Source: Candidatus Chloroploca asiatica (GTDB lineage Bacteria > Chloroflexota > Chloroflexia > Chloroflexales > Chloroflexaceae). Taken from it: a DNA stretch of 64,000 bases. The DNA lies in NCBI RefSeq assembly GCF_002532075.1, contig NZ_LYXE01000110.1, positions 62,001 through 126,000 of the forward strand, in the 5' to 3' direction. This document shows, in pieces, positions 43,328 to 59,956 of the stretch. The position numbers and the translations under genes are program-made. The first letter of the stretch is position 1. Every line of letters starts with the position of its first letter. Under the pieces are notes generated by a model. That model was given only the letters and a program-made list of their open reading frames with translations. It had not been told where the DNA came from and searched no databases.

Positions 43328-44098
43328 TTAATAGATTCCACCATCATGCCAATGGCGCAGATCAGGCCTGGCGCGGAGGTAAGCCCGTGCCTCGGCAATA
43401 ATCGCGTGGATGCGGGCCGTACTCAGATGCACCCGATGGCCAATCATCTCAGCGGAAAGATCATCGCACGCCCAGAGATGAAAAATCCGCGCATTGCGCT
43501 CACCCATTGTCCGGATCAATTCAGTCTCAACCAAACGATCGAGCATCCGACCAAGCGCCATTTTTTCAGGCGTATCGGGATCAGGATCTTCCACCGGCAG
43601 CGTCATCCAATCAACAGTACGATCAAACGTACCAGAGCGTTTGCGTGCGTGCAGATCGCGCAGATGGCGGTTGACCGCATTGGAAATCACCTGATAGGCC
43701 CAGGTCGAAAAGCGACTAGCAAAGCGAAACGAAGGAAGCGAGCGCAGCAGTTCAACCAGAGCCACCTGCGCAAGATCATCGAGATCGACGGCATCATCGC
43801 TCACCCAATCGAGGCCCGTATGGTGAAGAATCGCCCGCGCCTGCCCAAACCATGCCAACCACTCAGCTTCGTGGTCGGTCGCATCACGCGAACGCAACGC
43901 ATCAACGAGAGGCGCATCGCAATAGACATTCCACGCCACCGAGCGCACGTCCTCATCGCTGCAATCAGGTGAGACACAGATCGCCACGCGTTGAGCGAGC
44001 GCCAATTGCTCAGCCTCAGTCAACAGCCATTGTTCAGCCACCACCACACGACGTACCACAGCGAGACAACGCACACCAGGGGAATCACACGGCTCCAT
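43328..44098 (-). CDS. Sigma-70 family RNA polymerase sigma factor
   Basis: 256 residues. Region 2 is clear: 'DLDDLAQVALVELLRSLPSFRFASRFSTWAYQVISNAVNRHLRD' (core-binding and -10 recognition helix). Region 4 is 'ARIFHLWACDDLSAEMIGHRVHLSTARIHAIIAEARAYL', with the helix-turn-helix. A 90-residue N-terminal part precedes region 2, longer than usual ECF factors. The frame opens at 44143; ATG 44098 has GGAG six bases upstream. A minus-strand TATGAT near 44224-44219 could be the -10. It points away from the phospho-signalling array, which suggests it is that array's transcriptional arm; that link is inferred. Confidence 0.85.
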   Translation of the reverse strand: MEPCDSPGVRCLAVVRRVVVAEQWLLTEAEQLALAQRVAICVSPDCSDEDVRSVAWNVYCDAPLVDALRSRDATDHEAEWLAWFGQARAILHHTGLDWVSDDAVDLDDLAQVALVELLRSLPSFRFASRFSTWAYQVISNAVNRHLRDLHARKRSGTFDRTVDWMTLPVEDPDPDTPEKMALGRMLDRLVETELIRTMGERNARIFHLWACDDLSAEMIGHRVHLSTARIHAIIAEARAYLRARPDLRHWHDGGIY

Positions 44099-44317
44099 CA
44101 GAGGCTCCGACTTGCTACAGAAGGATCGAGTGAACAGAAACAAGTCATCTGACAGGAGGAGTGGCGTACCAGGAGTCAGGGCGGCTCACGCCAGCACCGC
44201 AACCTCGTCATAGACCTAATCATAGCATATATGTCAGCCATTACCAACATATGACCAAAAGGTTACAAGAATCTAACCGTGGTTAAGGAGGGGTTAAGAG
44301 GAAGCTACAGCCAATGC

Positions 44318-44366: not shown

Positions 44367-44367
44367 T

Positions 44368-44573: not shown

Positions 44574-44584
44574 AGGTAGCACAC

Positions 44585-44832
44585 GCAGATATTTTGAGGG
44601 CACATTCCCCAAACCCATAGAGCATACAACCGCCACTCCGAAGATTAAAAAATCTTAACCAAAAAAAGCAAGAGTCAAAAAGGGGGAATTGGTACAGATG
44701 AGGATGTCGGGGGTAAAACAGAGTCGAGTGGGGCGGGTAGCAAGAGATTAGCATCAGCTAACGAGCGGATAAGGCACTCATCGTGAGTAAAGCATGCATC
44801 CTTCGCTGTGTGTGGTCGAGTGAGGAATAGAT
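44585..44832. other. AT-rich gap before the signalling array
   Basis: No gene, hairpin or confident promoter was seen. It contains A-rich stretches (44645-44685) and a good ribosome site (GAGGAA) before the PP2C start. The promoter of the whole array probably lies here but cannot be pinned down by eye. Confidence 0.5.
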
Positions 44833-45714
44833 ATGCCCCGTTTTGGACCCTTCATTGTTGGTGCCTGCACCGATCGCGGGATGGTACGGGAGGAAAACGA
44901 GGACAATTACGGCCTCCCGTTGACCAGTCCTCTGCTGCTTCAAGAACGAGGGTATCTATTTGCCGTCGCTGATGGCGTAGGGGGATATGGCAATGGACAG
45001 CAGGCCAGTGCCTTGACGATCGAGACCCTCTACACTCGCTACTATGGCGAAGAAACTGTGAGTCTGCCCCAGGCCATCCAGAGTGCGAATATGGCAGTGC
45101 GTCGCGAGGCGTTGCAAGTCAAGGGCTATGACCAGCGGATGGGGGCAACGCTTGTTGCGTTGCTGTTACAGGATCAGGTGCTTCAGATTGCCCATGTAGG
45201 CGATAGTCGAGCGTATCTGGTTCGTCAGCAGATGATTCAGCCCCTGACGCTCGATCATTCCTTCGTGCAGGAACAAGTGCAGGCTGGCTTGATGAATGCT
45301 GAACAAGCCCGTGTGCATCAACGCAAGAATGTGATTACCCGAGCAATGGGCAATGATAGCGTTGTGACACCCGATATGTTGCATATCACTGACCTCCAAC
45401 CTGGAGATATCTTTATCCTCTGTTCTGATGGTCTGAACAACCATGTCACTGATCTCGAAATTGCCACCCTCGCAACCCAGACACCGCCTGAAAAAGCTGT
45501 CGCACAGCTTACTCAACTGGCAAACCAGAATGGTGGGTCTGACAATATTACCGTAATGGTCTTGAAATATGCACCTATCGGCAAAAGGGTCGGGTTTTTA
45601 GGGCAAACAGAGGTTCGTCCAGACCATCAATGGGCACGTGTCATGCTCTGGGTCTTGATGAGTCTCGGTATTGGAGGTGTTGTAGCAGGGGTACTCTTTT
45701 TTGTACTGACATAA
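44833..45714 (+). CDS. PP2C-type Ser/Thr phosphatase, membrane-tethered
   Basis: 293 residues. All PP2C metal-site motifs are present: 'REENEDNYG' near 20, 'VADGVGGYGNG' near 47, 'HVGDSRAYL', 'LCSDGLNNHV' and 'GGSDNITVMVL'. One helix at about 270-291 ('VMLWVLMSLGIGGVVAGVLFFVL') ends the protein, so the catalytic domain is cytoplasmic and there is no outer part, unlike the two other PP2C proteins of the array. It should remove phosphates put on by the array's kinases. First gene of the array; 100 bp separate it from the next. Confidence 0.93.
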   Translation: MPRFGPFIVGACTDRGMVREENEDNYGLPLTSPLLLQERGYLFAVADGVGGYGNGQQASALTIETLYTRYYGEETVSLPQAIQSANMAVRREALQVKGYDQRMGATLVALLLQDQVLQIAHVGDSRAYLVRQQMIQPLTLDHSFVQEQVQAGLMNAEQARVHQRKNVITRAMGNDSVVTPDMLHITDLQPGDIFILCSDGLNNHVTDLEIATLATQTPPEKAVAQLTQLANQNGGSDNITVMVLKYAPIGKRVGFLGQTEVRPDHQWARVMLWVLMSLGIGGVVAGVLFFVLT

Positions 45715-45814
45715 GCCTTTACTCTTTGTGTTGCGATCCAGCAGAGCAATAAAACGGTACGGTTCAGCCCGCTCTGTAGCATGTCTGACAAGGCCGAGTT
45801 GAGGAGCAGCGGTT

Positions 45815-47836
45815 ATGAAAGCTTTCTTCCGATGGATTGGTCTCTTCTTCATCCTGGGCAGTTTGTTCCCTCTGTCAATTGGACACACCCAGACATCGCC
45901 CGTCTTGACGATCACCCATGTTGATACTAGCGCCTACCCTCAAGTCAAGCTCTTGATCAGTGCGCCAAATGGAGCACTTCCTGATCCCGCGTCATTGCAG
46001 ATCACGGAAGACCGGAAAGCAATTGCTGCTGAGGAAATCGAGGCCAATGCCGAGCGTACAGGGGTCGCGGTTGCCGTGGTTATTGATACGTCACGCAGCA
46101 TGCGCGGGCGGGGGATGCCCGAGAGTGCCGACCGCCTCGAAGATGCCCGTGAACAGGCCATTGCATTGGCAAAAGCGCTGGATTTTGACACTGATTTGAT
46201 CAGTATTTTCGCGTTCCACCGCGACGTCGTGCCGATTATGCCTCTCTCACGCGTGGATGGCGGTGCCGTAGAAAATAGCATTAAAACCAGTGACGTCCTC
46301 GGCGAGATGCCAATCCAACCAACGGGAAACCGTCGTCCGACTGATGAAGAACTGAGGAATGACGAGCGAGCCTTCTCGGCTTTTTCTCAGACGATTAGCC
46401 GGGCCATTGATGAACTGAATAATCCGCAAACGTCCGACGCCTATATTCGCGAAAATCTGCCGCTGATGCAAAAGGTCATCATTGTGTTTGCCGATAGTTG
46501 CGATGATACGCTTGATGCCCGCGGCAGCAAGACCTGTAGTATCCCGCTTGATGTGCAGACGAAGTTGCAGGATGTGGTTCGATCCGGCAACCTTTCGATC
46601 TTTAGCGTTGGCCTCGGGTCACCAGTTGAAAATCAGGCGCTCCCAAAACCACCCCAACGGGCCGAGCCAGGGTTTCTCTATGCTGCTCGCTTCGAGCTTT
46701 TGCAACTCTATGCGCAACAGATTCCGCATAGTCGGTTTTTCCAATTCTATACTGCCGATCCAGCAGCGTCAGCCACCGTCCGTGAGGAATTCAAAACCCA
46801 AATGATCGATCCCATCATCAGTCGTGGCAACCAGATCGCGGTCAGCTATGCATCGCAGGTCGGTAGTGCCGGGCAACAACGCCAGATCGTTGTGAGTGAT
46901 GGCACTCTGCAAGTAGCCTCCACCTTTGAAGAGCCACGCATCCCGCCCCTGGTTGCGGTGATTGCTGAAGAGAGCAACGACCGCCTGATCATCCGGCCCG
47001 AGATTATCTATAGCCAGTCGCCCCTGGCCCGCGTCGATTACTACGTCAATAACAATAGTGTCCCCCTTCCTGGTGACCCACCTACCTTTGCCCTGGATTG
47101 GAGCGGGATCGAACCAGGGTTGCAACAGATTGCCGTGGAGGCAACCGATCAACGGGGCGAACGCTCGCTCCGCAGTGCCGCCATCGAACTCGATATCCCT
47201 GTTGCGCCAGCCCCTGAACGTCCGTTTGTTGTGCTGCCACCCGATGAAGAGCCAACGTTCTTGAATCAGCTCAATCGCTTTATCCTGAATAACGTTATCT
47301 CGCTCATCACGCTCTTGCTCGTCATTATTCTGGCCATTGTGGTGCTCGTGAATCCTCGCGGTCGGGCTGCCGCCAGTCAGATGACCAGTCGGGTCACCGG
47401 GGTCATTCAACGGATGACCCGCCCTATTTCGGCCACCTCGGCCGTTAGTGCCGCCAATGCCGACTTCGTACTCGTCGTGCAGCAGGGTGGTATCACCGGT
47501 ACCGAGTATCCACTCGCGAATTTGAATACCTATGTGGGAGCCGACCCAAGCCTGGTGGATATTGTGCTCGATGATCCTCATGTCTCAGGACGCCATGCGT
47601 CGATCAATCGCGAGGAGAACGATCTCTATGTGACGGATCTTGGCAGTACCAATGGCACATATATCAACCGGAATCCCTTAACCCCCAACGCGCGCGTCCA
47701 ACTCCACGCCAAAGATCAACTCACGATCGGTGGCATTACCCTGGAATGTATCTGGCGCGGGGGCGTTCCTACGAGCATGACACCCAATAGTGTCGAGCCA
47801 TCATCAACCGTCGTGCATGCAAATGGAAACAGCTAA
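45815..47836 (+). CDS. VWA (outside) - TM - FHA (inside) signalling protein
   Basis: 673 residues. A signal segment ('WIGLFFILGSLFPLSIG', 7-23) sends residues 25-485 outside; these include a VWA domain with D91-T-S-R-S metal site ('VVIDTSRSMRGRG') and a beta-rich part. A helix lies at about 490-513 ('VISLITLLLVIILAIVVLVN'). The cytoplasmic end carries an FHA domain at about 555-645 with 'VSGRHASI' and 'DLGSTNGTYINR', the phosphothreonine-binding core. It could convert ligand or matrix binding outside into docking of phosphorylated kinase inside. GAGGAGC precedes the ATG, and the kinase starts at the base after its stop. Confidence 0.9.
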   Translation: MKAFFRWIGLFFILGSLFPLSIGHTQTSPVLTITHVDTSAYPQVKLLISAPNGALPDPASLQITEDRKAIAAEEIEANAERTGVAVAVVIDTSRSMRGRGMPESADRLEDAREQAIALAKALDFDTDLISIFAFHRDVVPIMPLSRVDGGAVENSIKTSDVLGEMPIQPTGNRRPTDEELRNDERAFSAFSQTISRAIDELNNPQTSDAYIRENLPLMQKVIIVFADSCDDTLDARGSKTCSIPLDVQTKLQDVVRSGNLSIFSVGLGSPVENQALPKPPQRAEPGFLYAARFELLQLYAQQIPHSRFFQFYTADPAASATVREEFKTQMIDPIISRGNQIAVSYASQVGSAGQQRQIVVSDGTLQVASTFEEPRIPPLVAVIAEESNDRLIIRPEIIYSQSPLARVDYYVNNNSVPLPGDPPTFALDWSGIEPGLQQIAVEATDQRGERSLRSAAIELDIPVAPAPERPFVVLPPDEEPTFLNQLNRFILNNVISLITLLLVIILAIVVLVNPRGRAAASQMTSRVTGVIQRMTRPISATSAVSAANADFVLVVQQGGITGTEYPLANLNTYVGADPSLVDIVLDDPHVSGRHASINREENDLYVTDLGSTNGTYINRNPLTPNARVQLHAKDQLTIGGITLECIWRGGVPTSMTPNSVEPSSTVVHANGNS

Positions 47837-49573
47837 ATGAAGACTTATCCACGCGGGACTCACATTGGCCCCTATGAGATCCTGTCCCTCCTGCCGGCGG
47901 GGAAGGGAGGGATGGGTGCCGTCTATCTCGCTCGTCCACGGCCAAAGTATGCCGGTTCAAGCCCGCCCCTGGTTGCGCTCAAGATGGCCTATGGCTCACA
48001 TAATGACTTCCTCAAGTATGAGGTAGAACATATGGAGCGGATGAGCCATCCCCATGTGCTGCGGGTGTTGCCGATTCCCAATGCGGGAACCAACCAGGGC
48101 CGCCCCATCTATATTGCGAAAGCTGAACCAAAAGATCCCAAGTCACCGTACTACATCGTTGTGGAGTATATGCAGGGGGGGTCGGTTGAGCAATTGCTCC
48201 AACTGCGTAAGCACCTGAGCCCAGCCGAGGGGATAGAAATTACCAACCAGGTGGCCGAAGCGCTCATCCATATTCATAGCCACCAGATTGTCCATCTCGA
48301 TATCAAAGATAGCAATATCCTCTTGCGCAACCGCCTATCACGCTGGTCGAAGCAGGTACCTCAGGTCGTTGTCTCTGATTTTGGCATTGCCTGGTCAACC
48401 GAACGACGCCAACTGCCGACCGTGTATGGGAGTCAATTCTATACTGCCCCCGAACGCGCCGCTGGCGGCGATCCCCATCCGCGGAATGATGTCTTTTCAC
48501 TGGGCGTATTGCTCTATGAGATGCTGGTAGGGCGTACCCCCTTTACCAGTGTCGTGGTGCCCGGCACCAGGATTATGGAGCATTCACGGCCAACTGCGCT
48601 CAATCGCAATATCTCGCCTGAGCTTGAACGGGTTATGCTGCGTGCGCTGGCGACCGAACCAGCCCAACGGTATCAGTCAGTCCAGGAGTTCAAAGCGGAT
48701 CTCGATCGCGTCCAAGGCCTCCCTCGCCCCGGAAGAGTCAAGGTTCCGCTGCTCCAGGATACCCGCGAGTATCTGATTGCAGGCTTGAGCAGCACGGCTG
48801 TGCTGATGTTAATCATTCTGCTGACCGCAGTAGGCGTCAATGCCGCGGCGAACCAGAAGGCGAATGGCGGGGCTTCCGTGGGGTCTACCGAGATCGTCCT
48901 CACGACGATGACCGCAGAGGTCGGTGTGACCGTGATCTCCTCGCCAGTTCGCGCAACCGCCACCAAGATGCCGGTACCATCAGATATTCCCGTGCCAGTC
49001 GAGACGCGAAGACCGACCAGTACCACTCTGGCAAATATCACGCTCCCAACCGAACGATCATCTGCCCCTGCACCAACCAATCCGCCAGGACAACGGGCCA
49101 CATCAACAACCATCCCGGCAACCACAACCAGCGAGCCAACGTCACTACCAGCAACCCGCGTGCCAGCAACGCGGGTGCCGCCCACCCGCGTGCCCCCAAC
49201 GCAGGCACCAGGCGTAACGAGTTTGCCCACCCTGGTACCGCCAACGAACCCACCGGCTGCACCGCCGCCGACCAACCCACCGGCTGCACCGCCGACAGCT
49301 GCGCCACCGCCGCCAACCAATCCACCGGCTGCACCGCCGCCGACCAACCCGCCGGCTGCACCGCCGACAGCTGCGCCACCGCCGCCGACCAACCCACCGG
49401 CTGCACCGCCGCCAACCAACCCGCCGGCCCCGCCACCGTCGGAACCGCCGCCGACCGCCGCGCCACCGCCGCCGACCGCCGCGCCGCCGCCACCGCCGCC
49501 GGAGCCGGAGCCGCCACCGGATCAGCCGCCGACCGCTGCGCCGCCACCAACGGAGCCGCCAGTAGAACTGTAA
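47837..49573 (+). CDS. Transmembrane Ser/Thr kinase (non-RD) with Pro-rich outer stalk
   Basis: 578 residues. Kinase at about 8-290: Gly loop 'AGKGGMGAVYLA', Lys in 'VALKMAYG', catalytic loop 'HLDIKDSNILLR' (about 152) where the usual HRD Arg is Leu, and 'SDFGIAWSTE' plus 'YTAPERAAGG'. A helix near 315-338 is followed by a 240-residue outer tail of Thr/Pro repeats (PPTNPPAAPP), with no globular domain. The HLD form makes it a non-RD kinase, a class that often does not need activation-loop phosphorylation. Part of the tail is nearly identical to the tail of the next gene's phosphatase. Confidence 0.92.
   Translation: MKTYPRGTHIGPYEILSLLPAGKGGMGAVYLARPRPKYAGSSPPLVALKMAYGSHNDFLKYEVEHMERMSHPHVLRVLPIPNAGTNQGRPIYIAKAEPKDPKSPYYIVVEYMQGGSVEQLLQLRKHLSPAEGIEITNQVAEALIHIHSHQIVHLDIKDSNILLRNRLSRWSKQVPQVVVSDFGIAWSTERRQLPTVYGSQFYTAPERAAGGDPHPRNDVFSLGVLLYEMLVGRTPFTSVVVPGTRIMEHSRPTALNRNISPELERVMLRALATEPAQRYQSVQEFKADLDRVQGLPRPGRVKVPLLQDTREYLIAGLSSTAVLMLIILLTAVGVNAAANQKANGGASVGSTEIVLTTMTAEVGVTVISSPVRATATKMPVPSDIPVPVETRRPTSTTLANITLPTERSSAPAPTNPPGQRATSTTIPATTTSEPTSLPATRVPATRVPPTRVPPTQAPGVTSLPTLVPPTNPPAAPPPTNPPAAPPTAAPPPPTNPPAAPPPTNPPAAPPTAAPPPPTNPPAAPPPTNPPAPPPSEPPPTAAPPPPTAAPPPPPPEPEPPPDQPPTAAPPPTEPPVEL
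49151..49257 (+). repeat. Tail segment shared with the adjacent phosphatase gene (copy in kinase)
   Basis: These 107 bp agree with 50756-50862 at about 96 positions by eye. They encode 'VPATRVPPTRVPPTQAPG' and 'VTSLPTLVPPTNP'. Surrounding stalk sequence is much less alike, so this is a discrete duplicated block. Confidence 0.85.
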
Positions 49574-49618
49574 CACTTCGCCTCTGGTACTGAACCGATC
49601 TGGCGAAAGGAAGAATAT

Positions 49619-51040
49619 ATGTCTGTTGCCAAACAACAACCACATCAACCCTTGCCTAACAAGCGTGAGAGCCTGCGTATTGGGAGCTGTACCGATGCGG
49701 CAGGACGTGAAGTCAACGAAGACAACTGCACGCAGACGGCGTTGTCACGCACTGGCCTCGAACATCTTGGCAAGCTCGTTGCCGTCGCCGATGGCATGGG
49801 CGGAGGTGAAGCGGGCAAGACCGCAAGCAGCATCGCGATTGGGGCATTTGGTGAGGCCTATTTCGAGAGCGGGAGTGACAATCCGTTGCAAAGTTTGCAG
49901 CGTGCGGTCAACCAGGCCAATAGCGCAGTCTATGCCTTCACGGTCAATGCCCGCAAGTCAGGCACCGTCGGCACGACCATGGTCGCTGCGGCGATCGTTG
50001 GTTCACGAGCCTATCTGGTCAATGTTGGCGATAGCCAGGCCTATCTGATCAGGGATGGGCAGGCACGCCTGTTGACCAAGGATCACAACTGGGCCAATCA
50101 GCAGATCGAACTGGGGCGACTCAGCGCCGAGCAAGCCTTTGCGCATGAAAATGCCCCGCTGCTGACCCATGTGCTCGGGCAGGGGGCCAATCTGCAGATC
50201 CCGCTGGGCGGCCAGGCCGACGGCAAATTCAGCTTTCAAGTCGATCTGCAACCAGGTGACGCGCTCGTGCTCTGCTCTGATGGGGTTTCTGGGGTTGTCC
50301 CACCCCATGAATTAGCGCGCTTGGCAGTGAATGGCGACGCCTCACAGGCTGCGTCACAGATTGTCGCACGGGCCAAGACACGTCGCACCACTGATAATGC
50401 CACCGCTGTGGTGGTACAGTATGGCCCCCCCGTCAGCGCAGCAAGCGGCTTGCCACGCTGGATCTGGCTGGCCGGCGGCGCAGCAGCAGTCCTCCTTGCG
50501 CTGCTCACAGCCAGTGTCCTGGCTATTTCTGGTGGCAATGACGAGACACGCGTCGCAACACCACCCGCCATCACAGGAACTCCTGGATCGAGCAGCGTTG
50601 GGGCGACGGTTCCCCCAATCGAAGAACCAACGCCGGCACCTGGCGAGACTCGTCGGCCAACATCAACGAGCCTTCCGGCAACCTCAACCCCGCCTCCAAC
50701 GAATACATCTCCACCGAGGCCAACTTCACCACCACCACCAACGGGAGTCCCAGGTGCAACGCGGGTGCCAGCAACGCGCGTGCCGACGACCCGCGTGCCC
50801 CCAACACAGGCACCAGGCGTAACGAGTTTGCCCACCCTAGTACCGCCGACCAACCCGACGGCAGCGCCACCGCAGCCGACCGCCGCGCCGCCGACCGCCG
50901 CGCCGCCGACCAACCCGCCAGCAAGCCCACTGCCAACCAACCGTCCGCCGGAACCGGAACCGGAACCGGAACCGGAACCGGAACCGGAACCGGAACCGGA
51001 ACCGGAACCGGAACCGGAACCGGAACCGCCAGTGGATTAG
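49619..51040 (+). CDS. PP2C phosphatase - TM - Pro/Glu-rich outer stalk
   Basis: 473 residues. PP2C at about 15-270 with 'REVNEDNC', 'VADGMGGGEAG', 'NVGDSQAYL', 'LCSDGVSGVV' and 'TTDNATAVVV'. Helix at 281-305 ('WIWLAGGAAAVLLALLTASVLAIS'), then an outer tail rich in Pro/Thr that contains the block shared with the preceding kinase and finishes with 13 Glu-Pro pairs. Kinase and phosphatase would therefore reach the same wall layer. AAGGAAG precedes the ATG. Membrane-bound PP2C proteins are known; a stalk matched to a kinase is unusual. Confidence 0.92.
   Translation: MSVAKQQPHQPLPNKRESLRIGSCTDAAGREVNEDNCTQTALSRTGLEHLGKLVAVADGMGGGEAGKTASSIAIGAFGEAYFESGSDNPLQSLQRAVNQANSAVYAFTVNARKSGTVGTTMVAAAIVGSRAYLVNVGDSQAYLIRDGQARLLTKDHNWANQQIELGRLSAEQAFAHENAPLLTHVLGQGANLQIPLGGQADGKFSFQVDLQPGDALVLCSDGVSGVVPPHELARLAVNGDASQAASQIVARAKTRRTTDNATAVVVQYGPPVSAASGLPRWIWLAGGAAAVLLALLTASVLAISGGNDETRVATPPAITGTPGSSSVGATVPPIEEPTPAPGETRRPTSTSLPATSTPPPTNTSPPRPTSPPPPTGVPGATRVPATRVPTTRVPPTQAPGVTSLPTLVPPTNPTAAPPQPTAAPPTAAPPTNPPASPLPTNRPPEPEPEPEPEPEPEPEPEPEPEPEPEPPVD
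50756..50862 (+). repeat. Tail segment shared with the kinase gene (copy in phosphatase)
   Basis: Second copy of the 107-bp block at 49151-49257; the central part encoding 'TQAPGVTSLPTLVPPTNP' differs at only a few bases. Either a duplication or gene conversion between the two genes. Confidence 0.85.
50951..51028 (+). repeat. Hexanucleotide repeat (GAACCG) x13
   Basis: Thirteen perfect in-frame copies coding Glu-Pro at the end of the PP2C stalk. Slippage would change stalk length by two residues per unit without shifting frame. Confidence 0.95.
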
Positions 51041-51061
51041 TTAAGTGAGAAAGAGAGAGCG

Positions 51062-52276
51062 ATGAAAAACAGTACCCATAACCTGGCAACCCACACCCGA
51101 CAGCGAAGGTTGCTTGCGCACCCGACAGCGCTTATTTTCACCCTCACAGGGATCGGGCTTGGCTTGCTCTTCTGGATCGTACTGAGCAGCGCCAGTGCCC
51201 AGAGTCTGGCGAATGTCACGTTGAACTGGGTCTCACCAGGAACAAGTGCCACAGTAAATACGCCAGTGCCATTTGAGGTCGGTGCGACCGGGCTTGCCGA
51301 TGGCACGTTTACGCATGCATGGACGATTGATGGAACAACAACCTTGACGGATACGGCGACCGCTGCGGATGGGGCGGCAACCTTCACCCAGACCTACACC
51401 TTCGGCGAGCTTGGTCGGTTTATCATTGCGTCAAAACTCACCGATGGAACCAAAATTCTGACAACTACCTTCCGTCAGGTGCTAGTGACCGGCACCCTCG
51501 ATATTACCCGCACGGCTGTGTCGACAGCTGAACCGACGACCTTTGTGGTGACGATGCCAGAACTGCGCGCCGCCGGTGCCAGTGAGGGGGCGGTCTACAA
51601 TCTCGTGATCGAGTACGGTGATGCCATCGATAGCTTCGAGCGGCTTAGGATTCTTACAGGTACCACCACGATGACCACGACCCATCAGTATCTGATCGGT
51701 GGCACCTTCGAGGTCACGGCCCGGATTGAATTGATCGACATCTACAACGACTACGATGCCGATGTGCTGGCGACGGGGAGTGTCCAGACCGTCGTTACTC
51801 AGCAGATCTACATGCCAATCATTGGCACTGATCCTGAACCACCTGCACCACCGGTTATTCCAGAGTGCGAGGACATCAATAACAGTACTGCTCAAGCACC
51901 AAAGTATATCCCCCGCACAGAGCTTATTGGCACTGAGGGATGGCGATGCAGAGGCACCCTCGCGGATCGTGACGTAGGGCGAAGTAACTACTACTCAACA
52001 CAGTTGAATAGTGGGGACATCTTAGTATTTAGTATCAGCGAATTAGCTGCTGATGCCGATTACGATCTCTATCTCTATGACAACAACACGCCAGGCAATA
52101 CCACTTCGGTTGCTCGATCAGTGACCCGAGAACAGGGAACAACCGAGTCGGTCAGTTACCTCTATGAGGACACAATCAATGACCGATTGCACTACATACG
52201 CGTCTTGCAGTACACACGATCAGCGTCGCAACACAGCTATCTTTTGACGATCAAGATTAGTCCGGCGACACCGTAG
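51062..52276 (+). CDS. Secreted or surface-anchored protein with PKD-like and PPC-like domains
   Basis: 404 residues. A signal or anchor helix at 27-47 ('LIFTLTGIGLGLLFWIVLSS'), two beta-sandwich repeats at about 50-140 and 145-255 rich in Thr and Gly ('TFTHAWTIDGTTTLTD', 'GTFEVTARIEL'), a linker 'QIYMPIIGTDPEPPAPP' of a kind common in Chloroflexota exported proteins, then a PPC-type domain ending 'ADADYDLYLYDNN'. Lies between a phosphatase and a kinase gene with 21 and 31 bp gaps, so it is cotranscribed. It may be the ligand or wall partner of the VWA and stalk domains; that is inference. Confidence 0.75.
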   Translation: MKNSTHNLATHTRQRRLLAHPTALIFTLTGIGLGLLFWIVLSSASAQSLANVTLNWVSPGTSATVNTPVPFEVGATGLADGTFTHAWTIDGTTTLTDTATAADGAATFTQTYTFGELGRFIIASKLTDGTKILTTTFRQVLVTGTLDITRTAVSTAEPTTFVVTMPELRAAGASEGAVYNLVIEYGDAIDSFERLRILTGTTTMTTTHQYLIGGTFEVTARIELIDIYNDYDADVLATGSVQTVVTQQIYMPIIGTDPEPPAPPVIPECEDINNSTAQAPKYIPRTELIGTEGWRCRGTLADRDVGRSNYYSTQLNSGDILVFSISELAADADYDLYLYDNNTPGNTTSVARSVTREQGTTESVSYLYEDTINDRLHYIRVLQYTRSASQHSYLLTIKISPATP

Positions 52277-52307
52277 CCACTACATTCTGGTGGAGAGCGA
52301 GAAGTTT

Positions 52308-54002
52308 ATGGGAGCCGTCGTTGTCATTCTTCTGGTGCTCTTGCTTATCATCGCAGGCGCTGCGGTAGGCGTAGCGATCTGGATGAGCCAGAAAGCATCG
52401 CATGCAGGCGCAGCATCAGGCGAACGCGCCCACCTGCAGGTGGTTTTCGCCAATGGACCAGTGCGAGCGATCGCCCTGCCCAGACGTGGGGTGGTGACGA
52501 TTGGACGTGATGCAGGCTGTACGCTTCCCGTTGAACACCATCTGGTTTCGCGTCGGCACGCACGCATCATGGTCGAGAGCAATGCCTGGCTTCTCGAAGA
52601 TACCGAGAGTGCCAACGGGACCTTCTTGAATGGACGCTCGGTTATGGGGGCGCGCCTCAAACCGGGGGATATGATCGAAATTGGCCCGGCCCGGATCACG
52701 CTCGTGGTACCGGCCGGGTTCAACCCGAGTCAGGTTGTCACCCAATCCCGACCGATGGGCAAACCAGGCCCGTCAACCGGAGGCGCAGGAGGCAATACCA
52801 GTCATCAACTCTTTGGCAACTATGCCGTGGTACGGAGCCTTGGGGAAGGAGGCTTTGGCAAGATCATGCTGGCCCAGGATCAGCGCGACCGGCGCCTGGT
52901 CGCGCTGAAACTGCTCAACACAGCCGACGATTACCTGACGCAGAAATTTCGCCAGGAAGGAGCGATCAAACTTGACCATCAGCATATTGCCCGGATCTAC
53001 GATGCTGGTGAAGTGAATGGCCGATCCTATATCGCGATGGAATATGTCGAGGGGATCAGTCTCTACAAACTCTTGAACGGACGCCCCCTTCCCATCGAGA
53101 CCGCGTTGATCATTGCGGGGCAGATTTTGCTGGCACTGGAGTATGCCCACCGGAACAAGATCATTCACCGCGACATCAAACCCGAGAATATTATGCTCTC
53201 GGTGCATCATGGGGTGAAAATCATCGACTTCGGCATCGCCAAAGTCCTCTCCAGCGTGACGCGGACACGCGATGGCATGGTGATTGGCACACCCCAGTAT
53301 ATGTCGTACGAGCAAGCGATGGGTCAACCGGTAACCCCGGCAAGCGACATCTACGCAACAGCCATTGTGATCTACGAAATGCTGACGGCGAATGTCCCCT
53401 TTAGCGCCGATCAATCGATCGACATCGTACGCATGCACCAGAGTGCCTTGCCCATGCCACCGGGCCAACTCAACGCCAACATCCCTGCATCAATTGATGA
53501 AGCCATCATGCGGGCCCTGGAAAAGGAACAGAACCTACGCTTTCAGAGTGCGATCGAATTCGCTACTTCCCTTGGGTGTCCCTTGGGAAAACCATTACCA
53601 CCTGAGATTATTACTGAAATCGCACGGCAAACCCCGCCAGTGATCAACGAACGGAGCAACGCATCACACCTCCCTACCCGCGCACCGTCCGCATTGCCCC
53701 AGATGACCGGGCAGGGTCAGGCCGCCTTGCGCGTGCAAAGCGGGCCACGTCGCGGACAAGTCATTGCCATCACCGGACAGACCATCATCGGGCGTCTGGA
53801 GATCGACCCATCAGATGGAACTATTTCACGCCAGCATTTTCGGCTTGAGCGACAGAATGGGAGGTACCTGATCTGGGACAGTTCAAGTCATGGAACAGTC
53901 GTAGACGGAACCCGTCTACGCAACGGCACGTCACATCCGCTAAAACACGGCACACAGATCCAGGTCGGACAAACAATTCTGATCTATGAAGACCAGACGT
54001 GA
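52308..54002 (+). CDS. Membrane-anchored FHA - Ser/Thr kinase - FHA protein
   Basis: 564 residues. One N-terminal helix ('VVVILLVLLLIIAGAAVGVAIWM', 3-26) with everything else cytoplasmic. FHA1 about 45-130 ('VTIGRDAG', 'VSRRHARIM', 'SANGTFLNGR'). Kinase about 168-430 with 'LGEGGFGKIML', 'HRDIKPENIML' and 'DFGIAKVL'. FHA2 about 475-560 ('TIIGRLEI', 'ISRQHFRLE'). All canonical residues are present. Two phosphothreonine-binding domains around one kinase suggest an assembly hub or feed-forward recruitment. GTG 52290 is in frame; ATG 52308 is preferred. Stop is 12 bp before the next FHA gene. Confidence 0.93.
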   Translation: MGAVVVILLVLLLIIAGAAVGVAIWMSQKASHAGAASGERAHLQVVFANGPVRAIALPRRGVVTIGRDAGCTLPVEHHLVSRRHARIMVESNAWLLEDTESANGTFLNGRSVMGARLKPGDMIEIGPARITLVVPAGFNPSQVVTQSRPMGKPGPSTGGAGGNTSHQLFGNYAVVRSLGEGGFGKIMLAQDQRDRRLVALKLLNTADDYLTQKFRQEGAIKLDHQHIARIYDAGEVNGRSYIAMEYVEGISLYKLLNGRPLPIETALIIAGQILLALEYAHRNKIIHRDIKPENIMLSVHHGVKIIDFGIAKVLSSVTRTRDGMVIGTPQYMSYEQAMGQPVTPASDIYATAIVIYEMLTANVPFSADQSIDIVRMHQSALPMPPGQLNANIPASIDEAIMRALEKEQNLRFQSAIEFATSLGCPLGKPLPPEIITEIARQTPPVINERSNASHLPTRAPSALPQMTGQGQAALRVQSGPRRGQVIAITGQTIIGRLEIDPSDGTISRQHFRLERQNGRYLIWDSSSHGTVVDGTRLRNGTSHPLKHGTQIQVGQTILIYEDQT

Positions 54003-54013
54003 AGGAGCATGCC

Positions 54014-54457
54014 ATGAGTGACCCAAACGAGCCAAACTATCAACCATCAAACATCCCGCGAACTATCCTGGACGATGCGGTCTATACCACACCAGGCCCA
54101 TCACGCCCGGCTGAACGCACCGAATTGTTGAGCGACGAAACACCGCCCGCAGTCATGGCATGGCTGATCATTGTGAGTGACGGCGCACGTCATGGCGAAA
54201 TGTTCCGTCTCATCGGCAAATCGCTCACGATCGGGCGTGCCGATGACTGCGAAATTCAGCTTGAAGACCGGGCGATTTCACGTCAACACGCTAAAGTCCG
54301 GCTCGAAGGCAGCAATGAAACAACTCGTTATATGCTGCACGACCTGGCAACTGATAATGGAACGTTCGTGAATGGCGACCCCACCACCCCGGTCGAACTA
54401 AAGAATGGTGATACGATCAAAATTGGTCGTACAGAACTTATGTTCAAACGTGTGTAA
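54014..54457 (+). CDS. Small cytoplasmic FHA-domain protein
   Basis: 147 residues with an FHA domain at about 55-145: 'LTIGRADDCEIQLEDRAISRQHAKVRLEG' and 'DLATDNGTFVNGDPTTPVELKNGD'. The first 45 residues are flexible and contain Thr residues ('PRTILDDAVYTTPG') in a T-x-x-D/E context that could be kinase targets read by other FHA domains. ATG 54014 has GAAGGAG six bases upstream; a GTG at 53999 overlaps the kinase stop. Likely an adaptor in the array. Confidence 0.92.
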   Translation: MSDPNEPNYQPSNIPRTILDDAVYTTPGPSRPAERTELLSDETPPAVMAWLIIVSDGARHGEMFRLIGKSLTIGRADDCEIQLEDRAISRQHAKVRLEGSNETTRYMLHDLATDNGTFVNGDPTTPVELKNGDTIKIGRTELMFKRV

Positions 54458-54484
54458 GCGTGCATCCTGGTACACGGGCTGCCT

Positions 54485-54513
54485 GGCTGCGCACAGCGTA
54501 ACCGTGCGCAGCC
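54485..54513. terminator. Hairpin within the array, after the small FHA gene
   Basis: GGCTGCGCAC (54485-54494) pairs with GTGCGCAGCC (54504-54513). No T-run follows, so it may only reduce read-through or protect the 3' end. Confidence 0.5.
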
Positions 54514-54588
54514 ACACAAACGCCTTTCCAAACCCGTCAGGGTTACGAGAACCCACAAGCAACAAGCCATCTAGGAGGAGCGACGATC

Positions 54589-55518
54589 ATGAAGTACAAC
54601 GGATGGGGACTGGCCTCAGGCATCTACAATGCCCTCTCTTCACTGGTAGATATCGTGATAGGTATCGCCGTGCTCATTGTCTACAGTTCTTTGTTAGACA
54701 TTGCCCAGGAATTTTTTTCCTTTGTGCCAGAACTGGCCAATCTGACCTGGTTTCCCATTCTCCTGAGCATCTACTCGATCTTGAACGGCGTGTGGCGGAT
54801 GGTCATCGCCTATGGCCTCTTTACCGGGCGTAACTGGGCGCGGATCATGGCGATCATCATCCACTTGTCCACCGCAATGAGTAACCTCATCGTGGTTGTT
54901 GGATTACTCCAGATCGGTTTCATCGGCACCTCAATCCTACCGATTCTGATCATCATTGCCAACATCACATTGCTGGTCGGCATGTTCCTGCGCAGCACGG
55001 TCGATATCTATTCAGGCAATGGCATGAATATGAACATGGGGCGCCAGACACAGATCGCGCCGCCGATGAACACCTCGTTTGCTTTTGTGCAAGCAGCACC
55101 AACCCAGGCCGCCCCGCCCCCACCGCAACCAGCGCCGCCCTCAAATACAAGCTATGTCGAGCCACGTAAAGCCGGGGTCGCTCGTACCGAAGTGGCCGGG
55201 CCAACAAGCCCCCAGGTCATTGCATGGCTTGTGGAACGCAATGGGCCACGGCCTGGCAAAGAGCATCGGCTTGCGCAACAGATCACGATTGGACGCGATC
55301 CTTCGCGCTGTGAGATCGTGCTGGACGATGCAAAAATCTCGGGCGAACACGCACGCATTCGCTTCGAGCAAGGACGGTACATTCTGTTTGATCTCGCGAG
55401 CACGAACCACGTCTATGTCAACAATCAAGAAGTCCAGAAGCACGCCCTACGCGATGGTGATCTGATTAAACTCGGCCCGAATGTGCAACTGACCTTTATG
55501 CAGGCCGATCGAATCTAG
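54589..55518 (+). CDS. Four-helix membrane protein with C-terminal FHA domain
   Basis: 309 residues. Four helices in the first 145 residues ('LVDIVIGIAVLIVYSSLL', 'WFPILLSIYSILNGVWRMVIAYGLF', 'MAIIIHLSTAMSNLIVVVGLL', 'ILPILIIIANITLLVGMFL'), a Pro/Ala/Gln linker, and an FHA domain at about 215-305 ('ITIGRDPSRCEIVLDDAKISGEHARIRFEQG', 'DLASTNHVYVNN'). The linker has Thr residues that could be phosphorylated. AGGAGGAG gives strong translation initiation. It could be a membrane docking site for phosphorylated partners; function unknown. Confidence 0.88.
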   Translation: MKYNGWGLASGIYNALSSLVDIVIGIAVLIVYSSLLDIAQEFFSFVPELANLTWFPILLSIYSILNGVWRMVIAYGLFTGRNWARIMAIIIHLSTAMSNLIVVVGLLQIGFIGTSILPILIIIANITLLVGMFLRSTVDIYSGNGMNMNMGRQTQIAPPMNTSFAFVQAAPTQAAPPPPQPAPPSNTSYVEPRKAGVARTEVAGPTSPQVIAWLVERNGPRPGKEHRLAQQITIGRDPSRCEIVLDDAKISGEHARIRFEQGRYILFDLASTNHVYVNNQEVQKHALRDGDLIKLGPNVQLTFMQADRI

Positions 55519-55526
55519 CTATCCTG

Positions 55527-55550
55527 GCGCACCGCGTCCTGGCGGTGCGC
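55527..55550. terminator. Hairpin within the array, before the second VWA-FHA gene
   Basis: GCGCACCGC (55527-55535) and GCGGTGCGC (55542-55550) around GTCCTG, sixteen bases before the next ATG region. Probably a partial terminator or mRNA-stability element. Confidence 0.5.
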
Positions 55551-55569
55551 TAGGTAAAGACACACGACT

Positions 55570-57369
55570 ATGCGCACGTTCCTCACGAAACTAGTGCTGG
55601 GGCTAAGTCTCTTCAGCCTAATGATCGCTTCGTCAGTTCATGCTCAGGCTGAAGTCAACCTTCGCATTGACCGGGTAGACGATACCACGTTTCCCGAAAT
55701 CCGCCTCTTTACGACGATTACGGACATTCAGGGACGCACGATTGCGAATCTGCAACCTGACAGCTTTGTCTTGCGCGAAGCAGGCAATGCCATTTCGCTC
55801 ACGAACGTAGAACAGGTACCAGCCGAGGACGTCGCACTACGAGTCGTGCTGGCGCTTGATATCAGCAAGAGCATCACCGCCGACCTTGACCGGATCAAGG
55901 CCTCGGCCACCCAATTTGTACGTTCGCTGAACCCTGACGATGAGGTAGCGCTTGTGCTCTTTGGCAACACCGCACGGATTGCGCAAGCCTTCACGTCTGA
56001 TCATGGGATGATCACGAATAGCATTTTGAGCATTGGACCAGATCAACTCGAGGACTATACTGCGCTCTACAATGGCACCTTTGAGAGTACACGCCTGGCC
56101 TCGAGCGGGGCTATCAGTGGACGACGCGTCGTTGTCTTATTGACTGATGGCAAGAATACAACCCCTCCTGGTAGCGACAGTCTCACCCTGACCGCAGTGC
56201 AACGCGAAGCCAGTGATCGGGGCATTCCGATCTATGTCATCGGGGTGGGGCCACAGGTCTCTGAGCAAGAACTCCGGATCATTGCAACTGAAGGGCGTCT
56301 GCTCCAGGTAGATCAAGCCGATGAACTCAATACAGCTTTTCGTGAGCTTGCCACCGAGCTTCGTCAACAGTACATGCTCACCTATAATTCTGCCTTGCCC
56401 GCTGATAGTGGGGCCTATCCGCTTGATCTGACGGTGAATGCCCCGGCAGGCAGCGCCGAGACTCGCGCAAACCTGCGCACACGCCCACCAGAAACGCCCT
56501 ATCTGCGCGTACAGTTGCCGGACGAAGTCGAGCGTGGGCAACCTGTCACCCTACCGATTGAAATTCTCTCACAGTACCAACCAATCCTTGGCGAGGTATT
56601 GTTCAACGGTGAAATCGTCCTGAGCGAAGCATTGCAGGGCCGATCCTGGGAACCAGTATGGACACCAACCGAAGATTTGGAAGCAGGAGCATATACGCTT
56701 GAGATCCGCATCACCGACGAACGCGGGAACATCGGTGGAACCGCAAGCGATGCACTGCAACTCATCCAGGGGCAGGCAGGCGTGAATATCCCGCTGTGGT
56801 TCTGGATCGTGCTCGGAGTCATTGTGGTCGGAGCCATCGGGACGGGCACCGCATTGTTCATCCGGCAACGGAATAGCTATGCCAGTCAGCCCTTGACCAG
56901 CCCTATGTCAACCTTTCCTTACAGCGGGCTAACTAGTCCTGTTGGTGCCGAGCGTCCGCCACCAAAGACCGCACAGAGCATACCCAACCCATCGGTGCGA
57001 GCAAAGCGCAGCAACCAACCCATCGCAGCAACCGTTGTTGACGGGACAATGGCACTTGATCCAGGCAGGGCCAGCCTTGTTGTCGAACGCGGCAAAGCGA
57101 GTCCTATCGAACTCAATTTGCGTGCGGGAAAAGATATCGTGATTGGGCGCAAGCCTGATGCGGATCTCGTGCTGAACGACTCACGTGCTTCGGCAGAACA
57201 CGCACGGATCCGTTTTCTAGAGCACGCATTTGTAATCGCCGACCTGAACAGTACCAATGGTATGCAGATCAATGGAAAACGCACCGAGCGCGTACGTCTG
57301 CAGGACGGTGACCGCATCGAGATTGGTGGGGTAAGCATCATCTTCAAACAGCCAAAGGCGAAAGGCTAA
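55570..57369 (+). CDS. VWA (outside) - TM - FHA (inside) signalling protein, second copy
   Basis: 599 residues with the same plan as the gene at 45815. Signal segment 'FLTKLVLGLSLFSLMIASSVHA' (3-24), VWA domain with D97-I-S-K-S metal site and 'VVLLTDGKNTTPPGS', a beta domain, helix at about 409-432 ('LWFWIVLGVIVVGAIGTGTALFI') and a cytoplasmic FHA at about 505-595 ('IVIGRKPDADLVLNDSRASAEHARIRF', 'DLNSTNGMQINGK'). The two share little sequence outside the domains, so the duplication is old. The PP2C follows ten bases after its stop. Confidence 0.9.
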   Translation: MRTFLTKLVLGLSLFSLMIASSVHAQAEVNLRIDRVDDTTFPEIRLFTTITDIQGRTIANLQPDSFVLREAGNAISLTNVEQVPAEDVALRVVLALDISKSITADLDRIKASATQFVRSLNPDDEVALVLFGNTARIAQAFTSDHGMITNSILSIGPDQLEDYTALYNGTFESTRLASSGAISGRRVVVLLTDGKNTTPPGSDSLTLTAVQREASDRGIPIYVIGVGPQVSEQELRIIATEGRLLQVDQADELNTAFRELATELRQQYMLTYNSALPADSGAYPLDLTVNAPAGSAETRANLRTRPPETPYLRVQLPDEVERGQPVTLPIEILSQYQPILGEVLFNGEIVLSEALQGRSWEPVWTPTEDLEAGAYTLEIRITDERGNIGGTASDALQLIQGQAGVNIPLWFWIVLGVIVVGAIGTGTALFIRQRNSYASQPLTSPMSTFPYSGLTSPVGAERPPPKTAQSIPNPSVRAKRSNQPIAATVVDGTMALDPGRASLVVERGKASPIELNLRAGKDIVIGRKPDADLVLNDSRASAEHARIRFLEHAFVIADLNSTNGMQINGKRTERVRLQDGDRIEIGGVSIIFKQPKAKG

Positions 57370-57378
57370 CCAGACGAC

Positions 57379-58884
57379 ATGGATGCTCTCTTGCAATGGT
57401 TTAGCGCAACGCATCGCGGTCGGGTACGCGAAGTCAACGAAGACTCGGTCATGAGTTATCCGATCGCTGAAGAACTGAAACGGCACCCCTATCTCCAGCC
57501 ACCAGGTGGACGGCTCTGCATTGTCGCCGATGGCATGGGGGGGCATCGCGGCGGGCGCGAAGCAAGCCGCATGGCGATCCAACGGATCAGTCAGTTCTAC
57601 TACAACCAGGAAGATCTGACGCCTGATCAGGCCCTTGTGGCCGCGATCCAGCAGACGAATCGGGATATGCTCCTGGTGAGCCAGAGTGATGCGAAACTTG
57701 CAGGCATGGGCACTACGATCGTGCTGGTTGCGGCTGAGGGGTCAACAATCTATACCGCCAATATTGGCGATAGCCGGTGTTATCACTGGCGGAACGGCCA
57801 TTTGCAACTGCTCTCGGTAGACGACCGCTGGGTCGCAGTACAGGTACGCGAGGGCATCCTGAGTGAAGAACAAGCGAACGCACATACCTATCGTAGTGTG
57901 CTCACTCAGCACCTGGGCAGTGACCGAGGGGTCAATCCACATCTTAGCGCGTTCACCCTTGAAACAGGTGATCGCCTGCTTCTCTGCACTGATGGCCTCT
58001 TTGAAGTGGTACACGACCACGAGATTGCCACTATCCTCGGCGCAGAACTCCCCGAGAACGCACCTCAGCGCCTCGTGAATCTCGCTTTGCAACGAGGAGC
58101 ACCAGACAATGTGACGGTCGCAGTGGGATATTATGGCCCGCTGCGACCGCACAAAAGCAACGGCGTTGCGCGCTGGCTCGGATGGATCGGAGGCATCGCC
58201 ACACTTCTGATCCTGGCAATTCTTTTGATCGGAGGGATCCAGTTGCTGGGCGCAATGTCGTCACAGAGCACTGCGACTGTAACTCCTCTTGCAGCAACCG
58301 AAGCAGTTGCCTCGCAACAACCGACGACCGCCCCAACCTCAACCGTTATACCACCAACAGAAACGCAGACCGCCACCACCGAACTGACCGCCACCACCGA
58401 ACTGACCGCCACCACCGAACTGACCGCCACCACCGAACTGACCGCCACCACCGAACTGACCGCCACCACCGAACTGACCGCCACCACCGAACTGACCGCC
58501 ACCACCGAACTGACCGCCACAACATCAGCACCAATCCAAATAGCAGGCCCCATCGAGAGTAGGGATGATCCCAAATTGACAGATGAAGAAAGAGAGGTTT
58601 ATGACGCATGTTCACGTATCATCATAGGGGGCCAGCCTGGGACGGCGTTAATTATTTTTGCACGATCACGATCTGCAACAAGTGATATTAGTGTACCTCT
58701 CACTTTCAAAGTACCATCAGGTGAATCAATCGTTATTGAAGCAGATTACACTGTACGTAAAAGTGGTAATTATCAGTGTTTTCCATTGAGATCTGGAGAA
58801 AACACTATTTCTGTAAATAGTGACAGCACAACACACACATTTGAAGCCAATAAGATCTATCTCGTTAGATACAATCCATCATAA
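57379..58884 (+). CDS. PP2C phosphatase - TM - Thr-rich repeats - small outer domain
   Basis: 501 residues. PP2C at about 5-255 with 'REVNEDSVM', 'VADGMGGHRGG', 'NIGDSRCYH', 'LCTDGLFEVV' and 'GAPDNVTVAVG'. Helix near 264-290 ('WIGGIATLLILAILLIGGIQLL'), a Thr/Ala linker containing eight exact TATTEL repeats (331-378), then a C-terminal domain of about 110 residues (from 390) that is beta-rich with three Cys and noticeably AT-richer at DNA level than the rest of the gene. That domain is not recognised. It may have been acquired separately as a sensor. Confidence 0.9.
   Translation: MDALLQWFSATHRGRVREVNEDSVMSYPIAEELKRHPYLQPPGGRLCIVADGMGGHRGGREASRMAIQRISQFYYNQEDLTPDQALVAAIQQTNRDMLLVSQSDAKLAGMGTTIVLVAAEGSTIYTANIGDSRCYHWRNGHLQLLSVDDRWVAVQVREGILSEEQANAHTYRSVLTQHLGSDRGVNPHLSAFTLETGDRLLLCTDGLFEVVHDHEIATILGAELPENAPQRLVNLALQRGAPDNVTVAVGYYGPLRPHKSNGVARWLGWIGGIATLLILAILLIGGIQLLGAMSSQSTATVTPLAATEAVASQQPTTAPTSTVIPPTETQTATTELTATTELTATTELTATTELTATTELTATTELTATTELTATTELTATTSAPIQIAGPIESRDDPKLTDEEREVYDACSRIIIGGQPGTALIIFARSRSATSDISVPLTFKVPSGESIVIEADYTVRKSGNYQCFPLRSGENTISVNSDSTTHTFEANKIYLVRYNPS
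58369..58512 (+). repeat. Eight perfect 18-bp tandem repeats in the PP2C gene
   Basis: Unit ACCGCCACCACCGAACTG, repeated eight times without change, encoding TATTEL. In-frame copy-number change would alter the length of the outer linker. Confidence 0.97.
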
Positions 58885-58886
58885 CC

Positions 58887-59882
58887 ATGCATCGCACATC
58901 ATCGCCACCATCACAGATTGGGCAATACCGCCTTCTTCAGCAGATTGGTGAAGGGGGGCTTGCACGCGTCTATCTTGCCCGTCACCCTCACTATGGGCAG
59001 GTTGCCTTGAAATTACCCCTGGCAGCGGTGAGGCGGAATCGAGAATTAGAGCGACGGTTTCAGACGGAAGCGCGGCTTTTGCATCGGCTTCACCACCCTA
59101 ATATCTTGCATGTGCTTGAGACAGGGGCTGTGACGTTGCCTGATGAACAGACACAATATTTCATTGCGACTGAGTATCTGCCAGACGGCTCGCTGATGGA
59201 TCTGTTACAAAAAGGCAAACTAAGTGAACATTACGTTCTAGTCTTAGCTGTACAAATCGCCGATGCACTCGCCTATGCGCATGATCGTGGTGTCATCCAC
59301 CGTGATATTAAGCCAAGCAATCTGTTGATGCGAGGACCATATACGGTCGTACTGGCTGATTTTGGCATTGCGCGGCCCCTCGCCGAAGAGACCATTACCC
59401 AGGGCAAACGGGTGCTTGGCACCCTGGCCTATATGTCCCCAGAACAGACTCTCGGTGACCGTCGACTTGTCCGCCGCGGAAGCGATATCTATGCCTTTGG
59501 CCTTGTCCTCTATGAGATGCTCAGCGGGTACCAACCTCGCAACAATCCTAACCTACCCGACATTGTGGTGGTGCAGATGATTCGGCAACAACCACTGCCG
59601 CTCTTGACCCAGATTGCCCCACATGTCAGTCGGGAATTTGCCGGAATCATTCACCGCTGTCTTCAACCAAACCGTAGTCAACGCTACAGCACAATGCACC
59701 ACGTTGCGCAGGATTTACGGAGTTTAGCAGCCCACAAGGGGTATGCCTTGCCAAGCAAGGTCAACGAACCAGTGACAACCCGCACACAACAAATATCCTG
59801 GGGGTGGATCGTTGGCATCGGGACAGGCATTGGCATGATTCTTCTGGTGATCGTGCTTGTCTTGATTTTGCAAAGCGGATAG
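58887..59882 (+). CDS. Ser/Thr protein kinase with C-terminal membrane anchor
   Basis: 331 residues. Kinase at about 10-280 with 'IGEGGLARVYLARH', 'VALKLPLAAV', 'HRDIKPSNLLM', 'DFGIARPLAEE' and 'GTLAYMSPEQTLG', a full RD-type set. Helix at about 304-326 ('WGWIVGIGTGIGMILLVIVLVLIL') is followed by only a few residues, so it has no outer part. It lacks a ribosome site and follows the PP2C stop by two bases, so translation is probably coupled to the phosphatase. Last gene of the array. Confidence 0.93.
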   Translation: MHRTSSPPSQIGQYRLLQQIGEGGLARVYLARHPHYGQVALKLPLAAVRRNRELERRFQTEARLLHRLHHPNILHVLETGAVTLPDEQTQYFIATEYLPDGSLMDLLQKGKLSEHYVLVLAVQIADALAYAHDRGVIHRDIKPSNLLMRGPYTVVLADFGIARPLAEETITQGKRVLGTLAYMSPEQTLGDRRLVRRGSDIYAFGLVLYEMLSGYQPRNNPNLPDIVVVQMIRQQPLPLLTQIAPHVSREFAGIIHRCLQPNRSQRYSTMHHVAQDLRSLAAHKGYALPSKVNEPVTTRTQQISWGWIVGIGTGIGMILLVIVLVLILQSG

Positions 59883-59917: not shown

Positions 59918-59956
59918 CGCACCTCGTGTGCCAGCATAGCTGGTACACGAGGTGCG
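59918..59956. terminator. Terminator between the array and icd, GCCAGC-ATA-GCTGG apex
   Basis: 18-bp arms (CGCACCTCGTGTGCCAGC; complement with one mismatch that pairs as G-U) around ATA, between convergent genes. Stops both the signalling array and, on the other strand, icd. Confidence 0.8.

Follow-up and report, generated by a model that had tools for sequence, protein, structure and literature searches.

An eleven-gene VWA, FHA, kinase and phosphatase array as an alternative occupant of a type VII secretion locus in Candidatus Chloroploca asiatica

Gene content of the array

We analyzed a stretch of 64,000 nucleotides from Candidatus Chloroploca asiatica (the window), within which all coordinates are given. 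Eleven open reading frames, numbered g1 to g11, were found at 44833-59882, all on the plus strand and nearly abutting, with gaps from g1 to g11 of 100, 0, 45, 21, 13, -4, 131, 51, 9, and 2 bp. Domain calls by Pfam and NCBIfam assigned three PP2C phosphatases, three Ser/Thr kinases, two proteins that join a VWA domain, a transmembrane (TM) segment and an FHA domain, two further FHA proteins, and one secreted protein, exactly the set on one strand that a first-pass annotation made from the letters alone had listed. The packing and the hairpin past g11 (18 pairs), which is the only strong terminator-like one on the plus strand, bear out its view of one array and indicate that g1 to g11 are a single tightly packed operon. 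At the same site, two sister species (G044 and G046) carry a gene cluster for a type VII secretion system (T7SS), and comparison of these genomes identifies the array as an alternative occupant of a T7SS locus.

The catalytic motifs are intact in every kinase and PP2C of the array, with HLD in place of HRD in g3. The VWA domain of g9 is well supported (64 bits). That of g2 lies marginally under the Pfam cut-off (26.7 vs 27.0 bits); its MIDAS-type DTSRS motif is present, and a 63% identical orthologue exists. A structure model of g9 of moderate confidence (pLDDT 60) matches a BatB-type VWA domain, Ig-like modules, and a GarA/FhaA-type FHA domain, while the model of g2 (pLDDT 45) was too poor and was left unused. 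Six FHA domains are spread over five proteins; the two VWA-TM-FHA and the two other FHA proteins had been recognized before, and the two FHA domains in the kinase g6 had been overlooked. The phosphothreonine-binding Arg, Ser, His, and Asn are kept in four of the six (the first of g6 and those of g7, g8, and g9). Conserved Thr residues occur in the linkers preceding FHA domains, within ERTELL in g7 (three orthologues read) and VARTE or ARTE in g8.

Topology was predicted by hydropathy and charge. Both g2 and g9 are predicted to have a signal peptide, the VWA domain and stalk outside, a single TM segment flanked on the FHA side by positive charges, and the FHA domain inside, and the kinase and PP2C domains are likewise predicted to be inside. 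This agrees with the topology proposed in the first-pass annotation.

Table 1. Features of the array and its flanks, by position in the window
Feature	Position	Strand	Relatives and remarks
Putative anti-sigma gene (flank)	42359..43126	-	DNA ~90-93% identical in sisters; 30% homologue beside T7SS of G058
Sigma-factor-like gene	43328..44143	-	Divergent from array; 92-95% identical in sisters, there divergent from T7SS cluster
Promoter block of array	44618..44719	+	Also precedes T7SS operon in both sister genomes
g1: PP2C, C-terminal TM helix	44833..45714	+	Orthologue in G079
g2: signal peptide, VWA, stalk, TM (494-512), FHA with binding Arg replaced by Ala	45815..47836	+	Orthologue in G064, 63%
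g3: Ser/Thr kinase, TM, long Pro-rich outer tail	47837..49573	+	G064 orthologue adjoins g2 orthologue
g4: PP2C, TM, Pro-rich/(PE)n outer tail	49619..51040	+	
g5: secreted, weak PPC domain	51062..52276	+	Homologues in T7SS loci of G008 and G009
g6: TM, FHA, Ser/Thr kinase, FHA	52290..54002	+	Orthologues in G064, G070, and G079
g7: cytoplasmic FHA, conserved N-terminal Thr motif AERTELL, GarA/OdhI-like layout	53999..54457	+	
g8: multi-TM, linker with invariant VARTE, FHA	54589..55518	+	
g9: signal peptide, VWA, Ig-like stalk, TM (413-431), FHA	55570..57369	+	
g10: PP2C, TM, outer tail with 18-bp repeat (8.5 copies)	57379..58884	+	
g11: Ser/Thr kinase, C-terminal TM	58887..59882	+	
Terminator-like hairpin at operon end	59918..59956	+	Homology to sister G046 restarts at 59926
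Isocitrate-dehydrogenase-type gene (right flank)	59964..61829	-	Protein 98% identical in both sisters

The array and a T7SS cluster alternate at one locus

The window DNA aligns to that of the sisters over 38.7-44.3 kb on one side and, on the other, from 59.93 kb up to the end of the window, with ~90-95% identity. Between these flanks the alignment is confined to 44618-44719 (83%, with a ~55-bp near-identical core), besides the low-complexity (PE)n tail. This promoter block is present in one copy in each of the window genome, G044, and G046, and in none of eleven other genomes searched. In both sisters the shared sigma and isocitrate-dehydrogenase genes enclose a different block of ~16 kb. It encodes a ubiquitin-like protein (242 aa), WXG100, EccC (1525 aa), an EspG-like protein, a WXG100-lipase, a TM-FHA protein (274 aa), a VWA-TM protein (414 aa), a kinase-TM protein (459 aa), a PP2C-TM protein (455 aa), a secreted propeller-like protein (656 aa), and a ubiquitin-like/TPR (Ub/TPR) protein (501 aa). 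The sister EccC scores above both curated cut-offs, for EccCa and for EccCb, and WXG100 above its own; the ubiquitin-like labels were assigned by inspecting the sequences and the order of the genes, as the 242-aa protein had no YukD match in Pfam. Because the flanks and the promoter block are shared and the DNA between them is different, the comparison identifies the array and the T7SS cluster as alternative contents of one locus. The array thus occupies a T7SS locus by its position behind the same promoter block, not by composition. This standing as an exchangeable module of the locus is new relative to the first-pass annotation, which had noted the absence of a type VI secretion system. That no secretion system is present is true of the window and misleading about the locus, since the sisters carry the T7SS cluster at the same site and accessory genes are shared, as described below.

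The PP2C of the sister T7SS cluster has a (CCGGAA)n tract near-identical to the one at 50948-51028 that encodes the (PE)n tail of g4, which may reflect gene conversion or simple-repeat convergence.

A similar alternation is seen in other genera. In the Viridilinea genus, the array is present in G064 and the T7SS cluster in G058, where a sigma/anti-sigma pair (36% and 30% identical) also adjoins the T7SS genes. In the genus of G070, the array is present in G070 and the T7SS cluster in G050 and G008. G079 holds the array together with T7SS fragments, and mutual exclusion is therefore not absolute. An attempt to place the G064 array via the gene beside its isocitrate dehydrogenase found no array or T7SS counterpart for that gene. 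We rejected tRNA-targeted or mobile-element insertion: the window has no tRNA, no transposase was noticed in the block, and its composition is not odd.

The T7SS cluster with ubiquitin-like, WXG100, EccC, EspG-like, TM-FHA, exported VWA-TM, kinase-TM, and PP2C-TM proteins recurs in several families of Chloroflexales (L051, L052, L087, L088, L090-L094, L102).

Conserved gene order and patchy distribution of the array

Orthologues in matching order were found in the window genus and three other genera. Ca. Viridilinea halotolerans (G064) has g2-g3 on one contig and g4-secreted protein-g6-g7-g8-g9-PP2C on another. Two Oscillochloris metagenome-assembled genomes (MAGs) have g1-peptidase C39 protein-g4-g6-g7-g8-g9-g10-extra kinase-g11 (G079) and g6-g7-g8-g9-g10-extra kinase-zinc-ribbon/2TM-g11-Ub/TPR (G070). 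The neighborhood is therefore not limited to this strain; such a limit, with the genes scattered elsewhere, was what the first-pass annotation had named as evidence against its proposal. An assembly artefact was rejected as well, given the 225-kb contig, which is syntenic on both sides. A search with a g8 profile found the array in 4 of 41 family genomes, with a diverged g7-g8-g9 fragment in a further one (G440); among these 41 it is absent from both same-genus relatives, G044 and G046. Since the order is the same in several genera, yet few genomes have it, the array is a conserved unit whose distribution is patchy.

A looser array is present in a distant Chloroflexota genome (G231), comprising FHA, PP2C, VWA-TM-FHA, kinase, VWA-TM-FHA, and PP2C genes. 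One VWA-TM-FHA protein at this locus (G231:C203, L160) has an extra N-terminal domain, and a very long repetitive protein is encoded there too. The phylum scan with a VWA-FHA profile scored three candidates per genome and thus under-counts. A split form of the VWA-TM-FHA architecture, an exported VWA protein (~460 aa) followed by an FHA protein (~288 aa), occurs in many genera of the family (L025, L026, L028, L031-L034).

The array shares accessory genes with T7SS loci, and its enzymes lie outside the T7SS clades

T7SS loci contain homologues of four accessory gene types found in the arrays. Within the G064 array, a secreted 614-aa protein shows 40% full-length identity to the T7SS propeller protein. 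In G070, the gene that follows g11 shares 43-72% identity with the T7SS Ub/TPR gene, the full-length form of which is elsewhere confined to genomes with this T7SS. The zinc-ribbon/2TM gene of the G070 array shares 48% identity with a gene beside the G058 T7SS genes, and g5, the secreted PPC protein, has a 440-aa homologue in the G008 T7SS locus (E 9e-20; shuffles <=24 bits). The sole accessory array gene seen without a T7SS counterpart is the C39-type gene of G079.

These shared genes, together with the common locus and promoter block, raise the question of whether the array serves as a T7SS control part, acting in trans on a second T7SS or left as a remnant after loss of the export genes. The window genome indeed keeps a second, distant T7SS (L086, with EccC at G000:C89), which encodes EccC (1415 aa) and a YukD-FHA protein (224 aa), adjoins MeaB and B12-binding genes, and has beside it the only WXG100 found in this genome, a weak match. 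No kinase or PP2C was found among the surrounding genes scanned. In Herpetosiphonaceae (L101, G025:C2, 206-11856), VWA-TM-FHA (613 aa), kinase (402 aa), PP2C (476 aa), TPR (390 aa), WXG100, and EccC (1441 aa) genes lie in a row. A VWA-TM-FHA, kinase, and PP2C trio a few genes from WXG100 and EccC indicates that such an architecture does accompany a T7SS elsewhere.

The phylogenies argue against a remnant. In a PP2C tree that included background paralogues, the T7SS phosphatases formed one clade (100/100) with no array member inside, except for a long-branched Herpetosiphonaceae T7SS phosphatase that falls outside it, and g1, g4, and g10 formed three deep orthologue groups. In the Ser/Thr kinase tree the T7SS clade is also without array members, with weaker support (81/88). 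The trees thus indicate that the array kinases and phosphatases are not descended from the T7SS ones; the array is therefore no degraded derivative of the sister cluster, and decay in place was rejected. Furthermore, the sisters have the second T7SS and lack the array, and the array has been kept together in four genera without EccC. In G070 neither EccC (E<=1e-60) nor a WXG100 match was found; the array can therefore exist without a T7SS, as far as this 96% complete MAG shows. On balance, a T7SS control part acting in trans, or a remnant of one, seems an unlikely explanation.

Comparison with known systems

The closest published systems are T7SSc-T7SSj, in which EccC is often found with kinases, phosphatases, and FHA proteins, joined in T7SSc by a VWA protein; the survey in question covers Bacillota and Actinomycetota and leaves Chloroflexota unmentioned (PMC11217815). 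For Chloroflexota, a few WXG100 sequences are mentioned and nothing further on T7SS (PMC10765036, PMC3935865). In the literature searched we found no published description of the array, nor of a Chloroflexota T7SS with such parts. The sister cluster and T7SSc of Bacillota (PMC11217815) both have WXG100, ubiquitin-like, EccC-type, EspG-like, VWA, TM Ser/Thr kinase, and PPM/PP2C proteins. The array shares with TscD/TscE/TscF the combination of VWA protein, TM kinase, and PPM phosphatase; in the trees, the array PP2Cs and kinases stand apart from those of the Chloroflexales T7SS. Unlike T7SSc (PMC11217815), it has no ubiquitin-like or EspG gene, and Pfam and NCBIfam found neither an EccC/EssC ATPase nor WXG100 among its 11 genes, so that by composition it is not a T7SS. 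It has three kinases and three phosphatases, compared with one each in T7SSc. In addition, the array VWA domains (g2, g9) are exported behind a signal peptide, TM-anchored, and fused to FHA, whereas TscE of T7SSc is cytoplasmic (PMC11217815).

The small protein g7 resembles GarA and OdhI: it is a short cytoplasmic FHA protein with a conserved Thr motif before the FHA domain, the phosphothreonine-binding GR, SxxH, and N are all present, and its best solved-structure matches are GarA and OdhI. It differs from OdhI in that its Thr motif is RTELL, its score is 59 bits compared with the OdhI cut-off of 200, and it belongs to an envelope array. The Thr motif of OdhI is ETT. The operon as a whole joins FHA, PP2C, and PknB-like kinase genes, as does the actinobacterial FhaA/FhaB-PstP-PknA/PknB cluster, and FhaB, GarA/OdhI, and PknB models match its proteins. 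A general wall or cell-division control set of that kind is nevertheless very improbable, as the model matches lie far under the curated cut-offs, the operon has no RodA, PBP (PbpA) or PASTA domain, and its VWA ectodomains and patchy spread over 4 of 41 genomes are unlike a housekeeping set. The genome has a further FHA and PP2C, lying within 2 kb at C175, that could fill such a role.

The joint presence of VWA, kinase, and PP2C genes in one operon also recalls the TerY-P triad and vWA-MoxR systems (PMC7159879), and the kinases match PADLOC kinase models. These matches are to generic kinase models only, however, and the VWA proteins are predicted to be exported rather than soluble in the cytoplasm. 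The operon is FHA-rich, and no MoxR, VMAP, Ter, or nuclease domain is found among its eleven genes, in line with the earlier remark that no Ter gene is present. We therefore rejected a defence system, and a TerY-P-type or other conflict triad is extremely unlikely. With the threonine-phosphorylation pathway of type VI secretion systems (T6SSs), the array shares the kinase/phosphatase/FHA logic. A TagH-type model gave 36-45 bits for the single-FHA proteins and 77 bits for the two-FHA protein g6, compared with its cut-off of 120; no T6SS structural genes were seen in the operon, and a genome-wide T6SS search was not made.

A probable membrane-spanning phosphorylation module

Taken together, the data make it probable that the array is a one-operon, membrane-spanning Ser/Thr-phosphorylation module that acts as an interchangeable, non-orthologous occupant of the T7SS locus, with the same promoter block and sigma/anti-sigma pair. 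The best reading of its function is a self-contained envelope phosphothreonine signaling module, for which we infer the ligand and the output. The VWA/Ig-like ectodomains, along with the Pro-rich tails that g3 and g4 extend outside, would bind the wall or a secreted partner such as g5. Clustering would activate the kinases, which would then phosphorylate the linker Thr just before FHA, in the RTE motifs of g7 and g8 and at similar sites in g9. The FHA domains may bind these phosphothreonines intra- or intermolecularly and thereby build or lock a complex as in GarA/OdhI, and the three PP2Cs would reset it. The first-pass interpretation is thus partly supported: the module may sense wall, matrix, or cell contact as it proposed, and the link to T7SS was missed there.

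Several observations weigh against the interchangeable, self-contained module. Two of the six FHA domains lack binding residues, namely that of g2, in which the Arg is lost in the orthologue too, and the second of g6, which has no Asn. Ligand sensing by the VWA domains is suggested by analogy. Identical flanks on both sides are proven in the window genus only. G064, G070, and G079 are fragmented MAGs, with the G064 array on two contigs and the G070 array cut within g6. Finally, the window genome retains the second T7SS, so the array may still be linked to secretion in trans.

A bolder proposal is that the array is a full envelope machine that functionally replaces the T7SS: a phosphothreonine-assembled, VWA-tipped TM complex for contact between filament cells or with other organisms. 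It would swap with the T7SS as a cassette behind one promoter and be served by the same kinds of secreted partners. We regard this as improbable. The locus provides a natural experiment, in which closely related genomes carry at one site either a secretion machine with one each of FHA, VWA, kinase, and PP2C or the expanded set alone. It allows a test of what the phosphorylation components found in the newer T7SS types accomplish on their own, and it points to a Chloroflexota T7SS with a membrane-exposed VWA control set.

Sequence around the promoter block

Two copies of GGTTAAG, 11 bp apart, are located upstream of the sigma gene (44278-44298), and one CTTAACC is located in the array promoter; these may be regulator boxes. 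CTTAACC occurs 6 times in the window compared with 3.25 expected, which is not significant. Upstream of the promoter block lies an insert (44318-44575) resembling a miniature inverted-repeat transposable element. Its 21-bp inverted repeats (44366-44386 and 44555-44575) enclose a perfect 27-bp inverted repeat, and a perfect 23-bp hairpin is located directly outside them (44318-44366).

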